A stretch of DNA of 64,000 nt from Betaproteobacteria bacterium (GTDB lineage: Bacteria > Bdellovibrionota_B > Oligoflexia > Silvanigrellales > Silvanigrellaceae), in assembly GCA_016868315.1 (NCBI GenBank), contig VGHE01000006.1, forward strand, positions 1 through 64,000, in the 5' to 3' direction. Below, one piece after another: positions 38,688-48,159 of this stretch (positions within the stretch are counted from its first letter, which is position 1; each line of letters starts with the position of its first letter). Below the pieces are notes generated by a model. That model was not told the origin of the DNA and searched no databases. It saw only the letters and a program-made list of their open reading frames with translations. Both the position numbers and the translations under genes were made by a program.

Positions 38688-40093
38688 TCTTCCTCAAAAT
38701 TTTGAGCCAATTCCTTGCTGACACAGCTGAGCACTTCCGTATACAGGCTCGGGGTCCAAGAATTGAAGTGTCTTTCCAGAGGCCCAGCTTTCGTGCTCGC
38801 ATGCTTCAAAGCTTCGAAAAAATTCCCGCGCAGAGTTAAACTCGTAGAGTACTCTACGCGTCCATTGACAATCACCTTAGCTCCGTCTGCGTCGAGTGCG
38901 AATTGCCCTGTGAGCGGATCAACCGACATGCCGGTTAGGTTTTGGATTTGGATATAAGACAATTGACCAAGCTCTGGTAGCTGCGGCTTTTCAACGCGAA
39001 AAAACAAATTCGTATAGGAGGTCGATGTGGCACTGTCAGCATGACCTGTCAGCCGGAATCGCCCTTGCCATTCTGGAAACTCACTCTCAACCTCGGCCAG
39101 CAGTGCGGAGGTCATCAGCGGATTCACAAGCGTACCCGACTTCATGATTTTGACTGGTTTTGTGGGTGTTCCTTCGTAGTCAAAGACAGTTGAAAAAGGT
39201 GACATTTCGAGGTGAGGATTGTCTTCAATGGTCAATCCAGGAATCAGATTCGTGTCGAGATGGGCGAATTCCCAAGCGCCGGTTTTGTCGAGTAAGGCTC
39301 GGGTTTCCAGGTTTGGAATCACCAGCTGGTCGAAGAGGTCTCCAGCGGCCTTGTGTGTCAAGAGAACAGGAAGCTGGAGCCCCGGATCGAGAGGCCTGAC
39401 CGCAGTGCGGACAATATTCTTTGAAGCCTCGTCGACGATCTCCTTGAGTTCCTTTGCTGAAGGCAAAGAACCAAACAAATCAGAATGCGATTCACTTGAA
39501 TCCTCAAGCGAGAAGGCAACCATCACCGAGCACGCGGCTGAATGTTCCTTCGCCACATTGCCGGCCGAATCACAATACCTACGGTGACTCAGGGAAATCG
39601 AGACGCTCACTTCTCGGTTCATGAGACGGGGATGCTCGACAAGTGCAGCATACCCATCGGTTTGTTCCAACAATTGCGTGGTCATGCTTCCGGCATTGCC
39701 CTCCGCAAAACACTGCAAGAGTTCATGTGATGCAGGCGAAAGTTGAGGATAAGTATCCTGCTTTTTGAACTGAATTCGATGACGCAGTTCCACCGCCTGA
39801 GCCAAAGCAAATTCCAGCTGACGGACAAAAAGCTGAATCGAAAGCGCCTCGAGGCTGAAACCAACACCTCTACGATTTGGAAGCACCAGCGAAACATCTA
39901 GGTGAAATGGTCGATTTTCCTGCAGAGGGGCTTTGGTATGGCGCATCCCATTGAAAAGTGTTGCTGCATAGACTCGCCGATGGGTTGCTGTGCAAACATA
40001 TCCTTCAATTGTACCCGAACGCTGACACGCGTCGAGATGACCCTGAACTTCCTTTGTGAAGGCCTCAATTGCGGAATCGGTGATGTCGGTCAT
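38684..40093 (-). CDS. tldE: TldE/PmbA-family protein
   Basis: 469 aa. Non-metal subunit of the TldD/TldE protease that trims peptides such as microcin B17 precursor and CcdA in E. coli. The C-terminal part has the family pattern (LTGMSVDPLTGQFALDADGAKVIVNGRVEYSTS, then LRGNFFEALKH). It is coupled by ATGA to the TldD-containing fusion upstream and to xth downstream. It lacks the HExxxH site, as expected for TldE. Confidence 0.85.
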   Translation of the reverse strand: MTDITDSAIEAFTKEVQGHLDACQRSGTIEGYVCTATHRRVYAATLFNGMRHTKAPLQENRPFHLDVSLVLPNRRGVGFSLEALSIQLFVRQLEFALAQAVELRHRIQFKKQDTYPQLSPASHELLQCFAEGNAGSMTTQLLEQTDGYAALVEHPRLMNREVSVSISLSHRRYCDSAGNVAKEHSAACSVMVAFSLEDSSESHSDLFGSLPSAKELKEIVDEASKNIVRTAVRPLDPGLQLPVLLTHKAAGDLFDQLVIPNLETRALLDKTGAWEFAHLDTNLIPGLTIEDNPHLEMSPFSTVFDYEGTPTKPVKIMKSGTLVNPLMTSALLAEVESEFPEWQGRFRLTGHADSATSTSYTNLFFRVEKPQLPELGQLSYIQIQNLTGMSVDPLTGQFALDADGAKVIVNGRVEYSTSLTLRGNFFEALKHASTKAGPLERHFNSWTPSLYTEVLSCVSKELAQNFEEE

Positions 40094-42720
40094 TCCTCAC
40101 CTCCTGGACTGTCGCCCGTACCAATGACACGCACTTTGGGATGCGGCCTGAAAACCATGAATGCGGGTCCACCATCGGAAGTCAAAACCCCCTGGCCATC
40201 TTTACCGCAGGTACCAATGCTTCGGCACAGGGTCGGCCCGAAGGCATCGACAGCCGAGCGGAAACATTCAGTGGCGATTCCAGTAAAATTAGCCTCGCGC
40301 ATCCGCACAGGCTGCTCGCCCTTTTTTAACAACAAAACACGCGCAACATCGGCACGAAATTCGAGATTGGAGCAACTTGCTGTGCCGCCTTTCCAGCCAC
40401 TGAGCAGCAAAACTCCCTTCTCACCCTCGAGATAACCATGTTTCTCAAGCGCTGCCTGGATAAGCTCAGAGGGAAGATCATCCCAATGATCTGGAGCAGC
40501 TGATTCAGCCAGAGGCTTGGTCTTTGTGGGGCAAACCCAAATGCTCGTCATGCGGTTCAGGGATGGATACTGCAAAGATTGAAGCCTTGCAGAACCATCT
40601 GGATTCCGACCCGCAACAAGCGCCGTGTGACGCGTATGAATGGAGTCAACAAGCTTGCCGCTCTGCACGATCAACTTCCGCTGTGGCAGAACTCCCTCAC
40701 AGTCGACGGGCAAATAGCCACAGTTGTCGAGTGAACCATCGACCAGAATATCCATCCACTCCGGACCGACTTCGAGGTCTTTCATGTGTCCATTCTCACC
40801 GAAGCCCGATGCGCCAATTTGAATGAGGTCTCCCTCTGCAGCATGACCAATGGCCTCGTGCAAAATCAGACCGAGGAGATCGGCATCGACGGCAAGATAA
40901 TCGTATTCGGGCTCCTCGGGGACAAGCGATGCAGCAAGAAGATCAAGAGACTGCTGCATAACCTTATTGAAATGCTGAGCAAGCTCATCCTGCAATGGCT
41001 CGGGTTCCGGAAATGTATTTTTAAGATGACGAGCATAGGCAACACGCTTCTCTTGACCTTCAGCACAGGTTGAATTGGTCGCAATACGACAAACCTGACC
41101 AACAAAAGTTTGCTGCGCTGCATCGAGAAAATATTGCCATCGATATTCGGTCGACATATTTAGGCGGCTTTTCAGTGAATGAATGCGCTCATCATGGGGT
41201 GCACCATGAAACTTCTGAATAAGCTCACTGATGGTTTGAAAACGTTTCGCAAAGCTCACGCTCTGCCAAGGGTTTTGCCCACAATGAGCGATGACCTGAT
41301 CGCGCGAGGCAAGAATACACTCGTGTAAATTCTGTGGATCCCGCTGAGCCACCTGTCGCCAAGCCGCATCGAGCGCAGCAACCATACAATCTACGGGGAA
41401 CACTCCCGACGTGACCGTGCCGGTCATAAGACCCGTGCCACCGGAAACAATCGCACGCACATGAAATGAGCTCGATGCGGAGACTTCGGGAGGCCCCTCA
41501 TCGCGTCCGTTGGAGAGCGCCCGCGAAGCAGCTTCACGCGTTCCCAATAGAATTGCCACATCTTCAACAAAGGCCTGCGGGTGACTCGTCAAGAACTGTG
41601 CGATTGCTGTTTCCACGGAACGCGCCCAAACCTTCGCTGGATGGGAAGAGAACCCTCCCTCGAATCCCAGTGCAAAAGTCGGTGAAAAGCTCTCAGGAAG
41701 AACTGGTGCTGCTAAATTTTTATCGCCCCGACACGACACTGTTGCTGTCTCGAGCAGGTGATTCCGATAGGTCGCGAGCAGTTCACTTGTGAGTTCTTCA
41801 CTGCACGCAGCAACAACATTTCCGGCACGGAAACGTGTTTTACCTGTGCGGCCATGGAGATTCGTGAACACTGCTCCAGGTGTTTCATCGAAGAGAACCT
41901 GGAGTGCAGCTACATCGTAGGGTGCTACGACAGGATCAAGCATTGCATCGATTCCACCGCGGAGAATTCGTGTGTATCCAAATGCGTCGCTATGACTGCG
42001 GCACTCATTTGATTTCTCCTGAAGAACTTCCAGGAACGAATCGATTCCACGCCAAGCAAAGGTATTTACTGTCGAATAAGAAACAACTGCATCGCTCAGT
42101 TTTTTTGTTTGGCGCGCAGTACACTTCTTCCAAGTCTGCTGATGCAAGTCTGCGTTGTTCGGAAGTGTGATTCTACCCCAACGTGCTCCGTGGCCACGAC
42201 TGGCAATGAAAATTTCGTTCAGGGCTGGGAAAGCAACAACCCCAAGAACAGGGCATCCTTTGTGCACCAGCGCCAGCAGTGTTGACCACGTCGGCACTTG
42301 AGACAGAAAGTTGATTGTGCCATCGATTGGATCGAGCATCCAATACGTGTCTTGATCGAGATTCACTCTCTCCGGTGGACGCTCTTGCAAAGTTTTTTCA
42401 AAGTGGTTGAGACCCGGCAATCCCTGCAAAGCACCGCTCATGCCTGTTACGTTTTCTGGAGCGAGGTCGGAAAGTCGACCGAGGCTACCAAACTCCTCAC
42501 CAACAAACCCCCATTCGGGTGTGAGTTGCGAGAGACGTTTGCGAGCCTCCTTTTCGAGCTCCCGATCGGCTTCGGAGACGAGACTTTTGTCGGGCTTTTT
42601 CTCAGGCTGGAGTGTCTTTTGGTAATAGGACATTCCAAGCGTCGCCAGAGCACTCGCCACGGAAAGTGCATGCTGCTCGAGTGTGCACAGTTGCTCAGCC
42701 GTCAGACTCTGTGAGTTCAT
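40090..42720 (-). CDS. Fusion of inositol-monophosphatase-like phosphatase and TldD metalloprotease
   Basis: 876 aa in one uninterrupted frame with GGAGGA before the ATG. Residues about 10-320 are an IMPase/HisN-like phosphatase: VGEEFG (metal Glu), WMLDPIDGTINF (metal Asp), GGIDAMLDPVVAPYDVAA (late Asp). Residues about 340-876 are TldD: zinc motif HEAIGHAAEGD (His621, Glu622, His626), HTRHTALVAGRNPDGSAR, and C-terminal GTCGKDGQGV, which matches the conserved Cys region of TldD. The HisN-like part may dephosphorylate a small molecule or peptide handled by TldD/E. I know no described IMPase-TldD fusion. First gene of a four-gene ATGA-linked operon. Confidence 0.85.
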   Translation of the reverse strand: MNSQSLTAEQLCTLEQHALSVASALATLGMSYYQKTLQPEKKPDKSLVSEADRELEKEARKRLSQLTPEWGFVGEEFGSLGRLSDLAPENVTGMSGALQGLPGLNHFEKTLQERPPERVNLDQDTYWMLDPIDGTINFLSQVPTWSTLLALVHKGCPVLGVVAFPALNEIFIASRGHGARWGRITLPNNADLHQQTWKKCTARQTKKLSDAVVSYSTVNTFAWRGIDSFLEVLQEKSNECRSHSDAFGYTRILRGGIDAMLDPVVAPYDVAALQVLFDETPGAVFTNLHGRTGKTRFRAGNVVAACSEELTSELLATYRNHLLETATVSCRGDKNLAAPVLPESFSPTFALGFEGGFSSHPAKVWARSVETAIAQFLTSHPQAFVEDVAILLGTREAASRALSNGRDEGPPEVSASSSFHVRAIVSGGTGLMTGTVTSGVFPVDCMVAALDAAWRQVAQRDPQNLHECILASRDQVIAHCGQNPWQSVSFAKRFQTISELIQKFHGAPHDERIHSLKSRLNMSTEYRWQYFLDAAQQTFVGQVCRIATNSTCAEGQEKRVAYARHLKNTFPEPEPLQDELAQHFNKVMQQSLDLLAASLVPEEPEYDYLAVDADLLGLILHEAIGHAAEGDLIQIGASGFGENGHMKDLEVGPEWMDILVDGSLDNCGYLPVDCEGVLPQRKLIVQSGKLVDSIHTRHTALVAGRNPDGSARLQSLQYPSLNRMTSIWVCPTKTKPLAESAAPDHWDDLPSELIQAALEKHGYLEGEKGVLLLSGWKGGTASCSNLEFRADVARVLLLKKGEQPVRMREANFTGIATECFRSAVDAFGPTLCRSIGTCGKDGQGVLTSDGGPAFMVFRPHPKVRVIGTGDSPGGEE

Positions 42721-44146: not shown

Positions 44147-45583
44147 TTGCAGAAAACAGCAAAATTAATGAATTTCTTGGTACTCATTCTGGTTCTTTTG
44201 GAACCGGCCAAGATCTTTGCTGGGCAAAATTTTTCTAACCGCTCTTCATCTTCGCCCTGGTCACCCGGAAATTCTGGCCTAGACCGCCTCACTCTCTCGC
44301 TCGTCGACAGACTCCCGACCGATACAGAGAGAGAGTTTGTGCGCGCTCACGGAGCACGCGGGTCGTTTGAACTGGCCAATCAGCTCGTTGGGAGCCGCGA
44401 ATTCTTCGACCGCCTCAGTCTTTACTGGCAATCGCAGTTGACGCAGACACCCGCTTGGCTCTGGGAAAACAAGTCGGGAAGCCGAGCTGCGTTTGAATCT
44501 GCTCTGCAAGGCATTCAATCGAGCAACAAAATCGTTTGGTACGTTCAGCCGCCCGGACACCCGAGTCAACACAGCTGCACAGGACTTTGGACTCTTCTCG
44601 ACGAAAAACAGGCACCACTCATCTGCGGCTGCGACGAACTCGTCGACGCTCTGCCTGCATGGGACAGCTCCTCTTCGATGCGAGTCTGCCCGATTGTGAA
44701 AAGTGAGGAGAACTGCGGCGCATCGCTACAGAACTGTGTTCCTGCAGATGCCCGAATCCAACCAAAAAATCCTTATCTTGCGACCGACTCAAACTCAGCG
44801 GGAGGGCGTGCCATCACACGACTTCTCTCTGACCTTTCGCTGTCTCAGGGGCGTTCACTGGCTGCCGCAGTTTTAGCGCGTCGCAAATGGGGTGAAATGG
44901 CTCTCGTTGAGGCGCACGGTGTGCAATCGCGCAGCAGTATCGAGCTCCTGCGAAAGTGGTCGCAGATCAGCGCTTCGGAAACTCTCAAAGGAATCCACTG
45001 GGCATTGAACCTCGACCAGCCAAGTCGTCCACTCAAAGAGCTTCTGGTTCATGCTCCTACACCCCAGACAAGGCGTTACAATCGCCTGATTGGAGAATCC
45101 CCAGCCGAGGAACTTCTTCTCACCACCGGACTCGATGCGCGCAACCACTTCCGGCCGTTGCGTAGCACGGCTTTAGGGGAGAAGGTCTGGCAGTGGAACA
45201 CACAGCTGCTTTTAACATGCCAAATTCCGCATCTTGCACCGCAGCAGTTCACCCTTCCACTGCCGCATCCGAACATAGCAAAAGAGGGTTCGTATTTCTG
45301 TTCGAGCTGTCACATCTCGCTCGACAAAATCCAACAAGTGCAGCGTATCAAGAAAAACACGACAGGCACTGTGCATGCACTTGTTCCTGCACCAGACCAA
45401 AACACCCTGAGATTGTGTGCAGTTGATCATGCGCTGCAGTTTCTCTTGGGATGGCGCCCCACAGGAAGTTCTGTTGCTGCTTTTAGGCGCATCGGAATCA
45501 ATTCATATCAACAGAGCGGTGAAAGTCTAGCTGCTGTCATTCGTGACCTCTCACTTGAAATTGCAAGGAGAGATGCGGAATGA
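44147..45583 (+). CDS. Secreted protein with a CxxCH haem-binding motif
   Basis: 478 aa from a TTG preceded by GAGGGGG; an ATG seven codons later lacks a ribosome-binding site. Signal peptide to about residue 26 (KIFAG). CSSCH at about residue 383 is a c-type haem attachment motif. Sequence near the start (VDRLPTDTEREFV ... SREFFDRLSLYWQ) and end (LQFLLGWRPT ... ESLAAVIRDLSLE) recalls DUF1549/DUF1585-type domains that often accompany cytochromes, tentatively. Coupled by ATGA to the lipoprotein gene downstream. Confidence 0.6.
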   Translation: MQKTAKLMNFLVLILVLLEPAKIFAGQNFSNRSSSSPWSPGNSGLDRLTLSLVDRLPTDTEREFVRAHGARGSFELANQLVGSREFFDRLSLYWQSQLTQTPAWLWENKSGSRAAFESALQGIQSSNKIVWYVQPPGHPSQHSCTGLWTLLDEKQAPLICGCDELVDALPAWDSSSSMRVCPIVKSEENCGASLQNCVPADARIQPKNPYLATDSNSAGGRAITRLLSDLSLSQGRSLAAAVLARRKWGEMALVEAHGVQSRSSIELLRKWSQISASETLKGIHWALNLDQPSRPLKELLVHAPTPQTRRYNRLIGESPAEELLLTTGLDARNHFRPLRSTALGEKVWQWNTQLLLTCQIPHLAPQQFTLPLPHPNIAKEGSYFCSSCHISLDKIQQVQRIKKNTTGTVHALVPAPDQNTLRLCAVDHALQFLLGWRPTGSSVAAFRRIGINSYQQSGESLAAVIRDLSLEIARRDAE

Positions 45584-46500
45584 AACTTCAGGAGATTTTT
45601 ACTGAATGGAACACCCGAAAGGCTGTTGTTGTTGGACTCGTATCGTTACCGTGCGCCATTGCAATCGCAATTTCGGCCTGCATGAACAACAAGGCAGGAG
45701 CAAAAACTCTTCTTTCAACTGACCAAAGTCCCAAAGGCCTCATGCTCTCGGCTCAACAGAGCCCTGGTCATCTCAATAAGCAACACAGCGCCATGGGTGA
45801 GTGGAGCGCTTTTTCAATTTATCACCCCTACTCACAGATCAATGAAGAAAGCCTTTTCCAGAGCTTCAAAAAAGGGAAAGACGGTATCACAGAGGGTCAA
45901 GAATCAATTCAAACAGAAAACGAAAAATCTGAAAGTGCATTCCTGTTGAGCGGGCAAGCTTTGGTTCCGATTTTTCGGGCAACTTTTGGTGATCAAATTC
46001 GAAATGGAAGCGATGTCGAAAGAGATCCCTGGTTCACAACACATCCCTCGGCTTTGTTCACCCCTGAACAAATGAAAGCCCTCTGTGGGAATGACCTCAG
46101 CGATCTTGGAGACGGTAACTTTGAAATCTGCTGGAAACCGAAACTAACAGATCAGTATCTCAGCGCACTCACCGACTTTGCCACCGATGCATGTCCACAG
46201 CTTGTTGCGAAGGAATTTCGCAGCAACTTACTTCATTTGAATAAGCTCGTGCGCACAAGAGATTTTCGCGAGCAGAACCTTAAAAACTTTGCCACAAACT
46301 TTCTGAAAATTCCTGCCGATGAAATCAGCGAGACCTGGCTTGCCACCATGACATCTCAGGCAACAGACGCGCTCAAGGCGAATTTGGAAGACGAGAGTAC
46401 AGAACAAAACAGCAATCAGCGTGCCGAACTTTCAACACCTGACCTTTACACGCTCTCCTGCCAGTCGATCATTCTCTCACGAGAATTTTACTCGCGCTGA
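45580..46500 (+). CDS. Partner lipoprotein of unknown function
   Basis: 306 aa. An N-terminal hydrophobic segment ends in ISAC (Cys 34), a plausible lipobox. The body is polar and helical without known motifs; cysteines in MKALCGND, FEICWK and TDACPQL could pair. Its ATG overlaps the stop of the CxxCH gene, so the two products probably act together at the envelope. The end overlaps the convergent DUF2063-like gene by 13 bases. Confidence 0.6.
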   Translation: MKLQEIFTEWNTRKAVVVGLVSLPCAIAIAISACMNNKAGAKTLLSTDQSPKGLMLSAQQSPGHLNKQHSAMGEWSAFSIYHPYSQINEESLFQSFKKGKDGITEGQESIQTENEKSESAFLLSGQALVPIFRATFGDQIRNGSDVERDPWFTTHPSALFTPEQMKALCGNDLSDLGDGNFEICWKPKLTDQYLSALTDFATDACPQLVAKEFRSNLLHLNKLVRTRDFREQNLKNFATNFLKIPADEISETWLATMTSQATDALKANLEDESTEQNSNQRAELSTPDLYTLSCQSIILSREFYSR

Positions 46501-47156
46501 TTTCCAAGCCATTGTTGCAGTTCAGCCATTTGAACACGCTCGAATTCGAGCGACAGTTGATCTTTTCGGAAGACCACAAAAGCATCGGCATCACCGCCAA
46601 TCTCTTGCATTTTTCCAGACTGCGCGCTTTGCCACAGATCAAAAACCGACCAGGCACCAGGAGACTCAACAAACGCAGCCTGCTTATGCTCCAAAAGCGT
46701 TACGAACGAAAACTTGCGTTCGCGGATGAGCTCGCCAAAGTCAGATCGCCACGGTGCTGTGCGCACCTTCCAGCAGGCCAGTCCGCAACGCATAAGTGTC
46801 TCGAGCTGTGCAACATGCAGGTGAGAGCGCTTGGCTGCGAGTATGTTAATCAGCTGCTCTGCATGCGCGATAGGACTTTCAAAGCAACCCGGATGATTCT
46901 CGAGAAAATCAAGAACAAGACGCGCCAGCTCACGCGCACCCAACCATTGACCTGCCTGCGGAAAGAGGTTTTCAATCCAGAAAAGCACCTGGTGATATTG
47001 TGCGTGCTGATGATGGAGTCCGACGTGCGCAATCTGCTCCGGCGGTACCAAATGCAGTAGTCCATCTGCCCAATGTGATTTGCGTTCATCGCGGAGGCGG
47101 AACGACTCCATCAGCAAGTTTTCAAATGAGAAACGACTTTGGCTCGATTGTTCCAC
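46488..47156 (-). CDS. DUF2063-like partner protein of the MNIO homologue
   Basis: 222 aa from a GTG one base after the stop of the upstream gene, so translation is coupled. The C-terminal half fits the DUF2063/MbnC-BufC partner pattern: a helical region with CGLACWKVRTAPW, then PGAWSVFDLWQSA and strands ADAFVVFRKDQLSLEFERVQ ending in AELQQWLG. In described systems such partners recruit the peptide substrate to an MNIO enzyme. The similarity is weak by eye and supported mainly by the neighbour. Confidence 0.5.
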   Translation of the reverse strand: MEQSSQSRFSFENLLMESFRLRDERKSHWADGLLHLVPPEQIAHVGLHHQHAQYHQVLFWIENLFPQAGQWLGARELARLVLDFLENHPGCFESPIAHAEQLINILAAKRSHLHVAQLETLMRCGLACWKVRTAPWRSDFGELIRERKFSFVTLLEHKQAAFVESPGAWSVFDLWQSAQSGKMQEIGGDADAFVVFRKDQLSLEFERVQMAELQQWLGNQRE

Positions 47157-47157
47157 G

Positions 47158-48048
47158 TCAGACCTCGCTCAGTCGAATCAATGCACTCTGCCCGTTGATA
47201 ACCTCGGCTGCCAGGTCATGAGCAGGAATTAAAGGCTCAAACCACTTCAGGAAAACAGCACGGTGCTGGTTGGCAGGAAGTGCGTGCAACACATCTTCAA
47301 GCAGACCCCAGTGAGTCATGGAAAGACGGCCGCACTCTGCATCTACAACCCCTTGTGTTGAGAGTGCCATGGCACCAACCCGTACACTGGTGATAGACTC
47401 AAGAGGGAGCTTGCGCAGCTCCTGCTCGAATTCTTGTTCAGCATGGTATAGGCTGACATAAAAGGCGGGAACGTCGAGAATCATTTTGCAGCCCGTGGCA
47501 TCGACAAGCCGATTCCAGAACTCCACCTCAGACAACGCATCGAAAGAATACCGGAACATAGATGCAATGTTCACAAGCGATATTTCTCGCTTAGTATAGT
47601 GTTTGATCAGATTCACTCGTTCAATGACGTGATTCAAAATCTCTTTAGTTTTGGGTATGGGCAGTGGAGTCTGTAAACTCTGCCCACGGTGAGAGTTGAA
47701 ACCAACAGTAAAGGCTAACCAGCGCGGCGAGACTTCTTCAACGCATTCGAACAACCTCTTCAGTTCGCCCTCTGTATAATCTTTCTCGGCTCCCAAGTTC
47801 ATGAGACGCGACAGCAGACAAACATCAGTTCTCTGCGCGAACCTGCGTGCCCAAGCACGGTCAACGGAATCTGTCTGCTGAAGAAGGAGAGTGTCGAGCG
47901 AAACCTCAAACGCGGGCAGGTTGTCTGAGTGCGCAAAAGTCGAGTGAAAGTGAGGAAGCAGAGGCAAACCCCAACGCAGAGAGAGGGATTCGAAAGGCTT
48001 TCCCTGGAGGGTCCAGTCCATGCGCGCAGCAGCACCAAAATCACTCAT
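47158..48048 (-). CDS. Divergent MNIO (DUF692/MbnB-BufB)-like protein
   Basis: 296 aa from the ATG at 48048 (AGAGG upstream); the longer frame runs through the tRNA gene and is rejected. The layout matches DUF692 TIM barrels: SPRWLAF, LPIPKTKEILNHVIERV, LVNIASMF, SEVEFWNRLVDATGCKMILD, FYVSLYHAE, LPLESITSVRVGAM, and a late FLKWFEPLIP. Known members are multinuclear non-haem iron oxidases modifying Cys in RiPP precursors. Here several usual ligands appear replaced: LEN becomes LVN, DVNN becomes DVPA, IHLAGH becomes VRVGAM. It may be a pseudoenzyme or a new branch. No precursor peptide is evident nearby. Confidence 0.6.
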   Translation of the reverse strand: MSDFGAAARMDWTLQGKPFESLSLRWGLPLLPHFHSTFAHSDNLPAFEVSLDTLLLQQTDSVDRAWARRFAQRTDVCLLSRLMNLGAEKDYTEGELKRLFECVEEVSPRWLAFTVGFNSHRGQSLQTPLPIPKTKEILNHVIERVNLIKHYTKREISLVNIASMFRYSFDALSEVEFWNRLVDATGCKMILDVPAFYVSLYHAEQEFEQELRKLPLESITSVRVGAMALSTQGVVDAECGRLSMTHWGLLEDVLHALPANQHRAVFLKWFEPLIPAHDLAAEVINGQSALIRLSEV

Positions 48049-48072: not shown

Positions 48073-48159
48073 TGGTGCTCTCAGCCGGAATCGAACCGGC
48101 ACGGCCTTGCGGCCAACGGATTTTAAGTCCGTTGCGTCTACCAATTTCGCCATGAGAGC
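48073..48159 (-). tRNA. tRNA-Leu(UAA)
   Basis: 87 bases including an encoded CCA. Acceptor stem GCTCTCA / TGAGAGC, anticodon loop CTTAAAA with anticodon TAA, long variable arm (GCCGCAAGGC), T-loop GGTTCGATTCC. A class II tRNA as expected for leucine. Confidence 0.97.

Follow-up and report, generated by a model that had tools for sequence, protein, structure and literature searches.

The MNIOs are a large family of iron enzymes whose known membership is growing quickly, and they are assumed to use a multi-iron site to act on peptides. In the TglH structure, nine residues are iron ligands (His71, His107, Glu151, Asp184, Asn187, His216, Asp229, His231 and Glu258), and single mutants of the Fe1/Fe2 ligands have abolished or crippled activity (PMC10880893). 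A change of one putative site-3 ligand likewise abolishes the activity of HvfB (PMC13419390). The partner protein of MNIO systems helps to recruit the precursor, which is thought to be recognized in part through its own Sec signal peptide (PMC12452194). The locus described here lies in the window, the whole 64,000-nucleotide stretch of DNA that was analyzed, and appears to encode a member of this family that has kept its fold and its partner gene while its iron site has been dismantled.

The MNIO-like gene, its partner and the surrounding locus

The gene for the putative MNIO (DUF692) pseudoenzyme occupies positions 47158..48048 of the minus strand and encodes 296 residues from an ATG at 48048, a start common to its orthologues. 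A sequence-only reading of this DNA had called the product MNIO (DUF692)-like, and this assignment holds: the profile search against PF05114 gives a significant match of 106.9 bits (E 1.3e-30, cut-off 25), and the predicted structure is nearest to MNIO crystal structures. The score against the MNIO_BufB model NF050167 is 101.8 bits, under the equivalog cut-off of 310, as is the 251 bits of the intact paralogue. The AlphaFold2 model, calculated from three sequences with no templates, is of moderate quality (pLDDT 58, pTM 0.65). Its top PDB matches are all MNIOs, namely 3bww (Z 19.5), TglH (19.4) and MbnB (18.3); the MNIO structures matched span Z scores of 17.6–19.5, and sugar isomerases come next, from 14.7. 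On the basis of this model the gene product is predicted to be a TIM barrel like MbnB and TglH.

Downstream lies a divergent PME/DUF2063-type MNIO partner gene at 46488..47156 (minus strand), which begins with GTG and encodes 222 residues. The two coding sequences are separated by the single base 47157, exactly as had been noted. The description of this partner as DUF2063-like stands in part. Its score against the Pfam DUF2063 model is 14.4 bits, below the cut-off of 27.2, and the Pfam evidence is thus sub-threshold; however, when 23 products of genes that immediately follow true MNIO genes are used to build a profile, it ranks above every unrelated open reading frame. In an hmmsearch of 752 open reading frames the degenerate partners score 14–24 bits (23 bits for the one encoded here) and unrelated ones 3.5 bits or less, and hhalign aligns the partner with the 23-partner profile over nearly its full length at a probability of 96.6%. 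These profile comparisons confirm, at the level of sequence, its relation to MNIO partners; it is homologous to the proteins encoded right after MNIO genes, in agreement with the PME-type 2 concept put forward by Antoine et al. (PMC12452194). Its secondary structure is predicted as a helical N-terminal part followed by a small alpha/beta C-terminal part, an order compatible with the helical N-terminal and RRE-type domains of PME partners; its model is weak (pLDDT 46) and has no fold match. Direct comparison of the degenerate and intact partner alignments did not reach significance, and the relation emerged with the deeper profile.

Upstream, a tRNA-Leu(UAA) gene (48073..48159), likewise on the minus strand, ends 24 nt ahead of the MNIO-like start codon and is found upstream in both orthologous loci as well; this arrangement suggests tRNA-mRNA co-transcription. 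On the opposite side, a convergent plus-strand gene at 45580..46500 encodes a 306-residue protein with an N-terminal hydrophobic, lipobox-like segment and overlaps the 3’ end of the partner gene. It is preceded on the plus strand by a gene at 44147..45583 for an exported-looking 478-residue protein, which starts like a signal peptide and has a single, conserved CxxCH motif. A Pfam/NCBIfam search with the products of 44147–46500 gave no match over the cut-off. Both neighbors are found only in the three pair-carrying genomes of the 15 searched, and it is possible, as a weak inference from synteny within one genus, that these two exported proteins are clients of the pair. As far as the contigs extend, the three genomes share an order of PP2C gene, two exported-protein genes, partner gene, MNIO-like gene, tRNA-Leu, SDR gene and matrixin-like gene; in one of them a tyrosyl-tRNA-synthetase-like open reading frame separates the tRNA from the MNIO-like gene. 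Elsewhere in the window, at 40090–42720 of the minus strand, an 876-residue fusion joins an inositol-monophosphatase domain (PF00459) to a TldD/PmbA metallopeptidase C-terminal domain (PF19289); a sister genome has a similar 893-residue open reading frame.

The earlier observation that no precursor gene adjoins the pair is also borne out. The 24 nt to tRNA-Leu upstream and the convergent overlap downstream leave no room for one, and the locus therefore does not have the makeup of a RiPP cluster such as that of a bufferin. No DUF2282 bufferin is present in the window’s genome. The missing linked precursor is not distinctive, since the intact paralogue of the genus likewise lacks a linked precursor that is conserved. 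This intact MNIO-partner pair is carried by all three genomes, unlinked to the degenerate pair (on contig C9 in G000), and its neighbors differ among them. In the window’s genome, LPMO_10-like and pentapeptide-repeat genes are located divergently upstream of the intact pair (L030, 4882–7691); the pentapeptide-repeat gene was rejected as a candidate precursor because it is not conserved beside the intact pair in the other two genomes.

Replacement of the iron ligands

Equivalents of the TglH ligands were assigned by sequence alignment to residues 79, 114, 159, 192, 195, 223, 236, 238 and 268, at which the MNIO-like protein reads L, T, V, D, A, R, D, E and K. The corresponding residues are L, S, V, D, A, R, D, E and K in one orthologue and F, A, V, D, A, R, D, E and K in the other. 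Seven of the nine ligands are therefore replaced in all three proteins (H→L, H→T, E→V, N→A, H→R, H→E and E→K in the window protein), leaving two Asp; the losses comprise four His, the two key Glu and the Asn. In the N-terminal half, L79 (47812..47814, like all that follow on the minus strand) stands for TglH His71 and is L, L or F in the orthologues, and T114 (47707..47709) stands for His107 and is T, S or A. V159 (47572..47574) aligns with the bridging ligand Glu151, and A195 (47464..47466) with Asn187, three residues after the retained ligand D192 (47473..47475; Asp184). R223 (47380..47382) takes the place of His216 and is Arg in all three orthologues, compared with His in all full-length canonical relatives. 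The second retained ligand, D236 (47341..47343; Asp229), is followed by E238 (47335..47337) for His231 and K268 (47245..47247) for Glu258. Five of the seven replacements (V, A, R, E and K) are fixed across the three orthologues.

The residues quoted in the sequence-only reading as departures from the family, LVN (V159 N160), DVPA (D192–A195) and VRVGAM (R223...M227), are correct, and the ligand loss it proposed is confirmed as clade-specific and stable across three species. The losses extend further than it had recognized: DTH has become DAE (H to E238), ILEND is now FLKWF (E to K268), and neither N-terminal His remains (L79 and T114).

The alignment covers the DUF692 proteins of 58 class genomes, which also make up the phylum set, together with plasmid copies. 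All nine ligands are kept in 65 of the 71 aligned proteins, and the site is dismantled only in the three orthologues; the remaining three exceptions are truncated or conservatively varied. Among the class proteins, 54 of 59 have all nine ligands, one is a truncated open reading frame and one has an Asn to His change, while 11 of 12 plasmid proteins (Pseudomonadota) have the full set and one reads HDEDHHDHE. Two very divergent DUF692 proteins (L087 and L128), with His for the Fe3-site Asn, possibly represent a subfamily whose third iron site differs.

In this alignment, none of the three orthologues retains the nine ligands expected of a functional MNIO enzyme. Canonical MNIO chemistry is very unlikely for the encoded protein, because five of the six Fe1/Fe2 ligands appear to be lost.

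Conservation and origin of the pair

The orthologous loci belong to two further MAGs of the genus, recorded as an uncultured Silvanigrella sp. and as an unclassified proteobacterium. Their MNIO-like proteins are 70% and 60% identical to the window protein and share its ligand loss. The pair is carried only by these three closely related genomes, all MAGs, and the pairing of the two genes is kept in each. A contig scan for relatives, which used N-terminal patterns only and thus says little about relatives without the tail, found the two orthologues; a scan of viral contigs found no relatives.

Several comparisons provide evidence that the pair is maintained. Between species the degenerate MNIO is 60–70% identical, compared with 55–59% for the intact MNIO of the same genomes, and its partner is 45–63% identical, compared with 36–46% for the intact one. 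Values of dN for the degenerate MNIO are 0.21–0.36, with dS saturated or incomputable. A conserved N-terminal tail (residues 1–26, MSDFGAAxRMDWTLxGxPFE..., 47971..48048 of the minus strand) lies upstream of the PF05114 match, which begins at residue 27, and 19 of its 26 residues are invariant in the three species. Residues 233–275, part of the former active-site end, are highly conserved. Around the old site 35 of 54 residues are invariant, as against 106 of 216 in the rest of the domain, a modest enrichment (p=0.047). Invariant positions include Asp192, Asp236, Glu238, Cys239 and His246, and two invariant motifs, DAECGRLSxTHWG and FLKWFEPL, are not found in canonical members.

The protein therefore combines loss of the motif with continued purifying selection, the pattern of a pseudoenzyme. 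The sequences seem to reflect selection that favored a different function and not loss of function, because of the whole pattern of intact frames, fixed replacements, kept pairing and an identity above that of the intact copy; the weight lies on that combination because invariant residues are only modestly enriched at the former site. Phylogenetic analysis of 59 DUF692 proteins unites the three orthologues in a single clade (100/100), which is set apart by a branch of 4.75 changes per site. This clade groups with the genus’s intact MNIO and a single further protein from the class (90/93), a placement made uncertain by the long branch. The simplest origin is probably a duplication of the MNIO-partner pair at or before the origin of the genus.

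Possible functions and comparison with known systems

It is moderately likely that the pair is a conserved complex of MNIO pseudoenzyme and partner that has been kept to bind a peptide or protein without oxidizing it. After duplication of an MNIO-partner pair, the iron site of one copy would have been dismantled and the TIM barrel and adjoining partner retained. Arg223, Glu238 and Lys268, with the kept Asp192 and Asp236, would then occupy the former iron place, probably as a metal-free, charge-paired pocket, and the complex may serve as a recognition or holding module for a peptide or protein. Homology, fold class, ligand loss, conservation and gene pairing were computed; from these we infer that the complex still forms and that it works by binding. 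Against the pseudoenzyme reading, Asp192, Asp236, Glu238, Cys239 and His246 could make a different site, the model is of moderate quality with ligand positions taken from alignment, and the evidence comes from three closely related MAGs, with the link to the neighbors being synteny in one genus.

An alternative, considered unlikely, is that K268, R223, D192, D236, E238, C239 and H246 form a new active site, metal-free or using another metal, that modifies or hydrolyzes a partner-delivered substrate. Conservation of the former iron face above average (residues 233–275), the two invariant motifs absent from canonical members, and the isomerases and epimerases that follow directly after MNIOs among the structural matches are consistent with such an enzyme; however, no known catalytic motif was recognized, and conservation is a property of binding pockets too. 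A barrel rebuilt with Lys, Arg, Cys and acidic residues could, with a similarly low probability, be either a new enzyme that modifies proteins under the guidance of its partner or a chaperone for exported proteins that descends from RiPP machinery. It is rather improbable that the pair instead regulates the intact MNIO pair, by forming mixed complexes or competing for precursor so as to tune the active enzyme. Both pairs are present in all three genomes, both MNIOs belong to a single subtree (support 90/93, with a long branch) and regulation of enzymes by pseudoenzymes is a known mode (PMC10211241), but the two loci are unlinked, their partners differ widely in sequence, giving no significant match when compared directly, and they have no known shared precursor.

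Two simpler explanations were rejected. That the protein is a normal MNIO with its ligands displaced by the alignment might be suspected from the conserved acidic, Cys and His residues near the site, but has very little probability: the retained VN, LD and D236 anchor the alignment around each ligand, five of the six Fe1/Fe2 positions hold non-ligating or basic residues, and two positions vary among the orthologues (L/F and T/S/A). Decay of a pseudogene pair, to which the long branch of 4.75 changes per site might point, is slightly less probable again, given that neither reading frame is broken in any of the three species, that dS is saturated and dN low, and that conservation exceeds that of the intact paralogues.

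A stably conserved family member without the iron site but with its partner kept offers a natural test of the barrel-partner complex minus that chemistry. It also indicates that a DUF692 annotation does not by itself imply an iron oxidase. No MNIO pseudoenzyme is described in the open-access papers covered by the search.

Comparison with the MNIO enzymes BufB, HvfB, MbnB and TglH reveals the same TIM-barrel fold, sequence family and partner gene directly after. Unlike these enzymes, the degenerate copy has lost seven of nine ligands, has a conserved N-terminal tail and no precursor gene, and carries new invariant motifs where they have DTHD and ILEND. Its partner occupies the same place after the MNIO gene as the PME partners (DUF2063, TglI and MbnC), is profile-collinear with them and has the same predicted order of secondary structure; however, it falls below the DUF2063 cut-off, is found only in this genus and is shorter (219–227 residues, compared with 271–299 for the intact partners of the genus). 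Pseudokinases and pseudophosphatases present a similar picture, with a conserved fold, a lost catalytic site and an active paralogue alongside.
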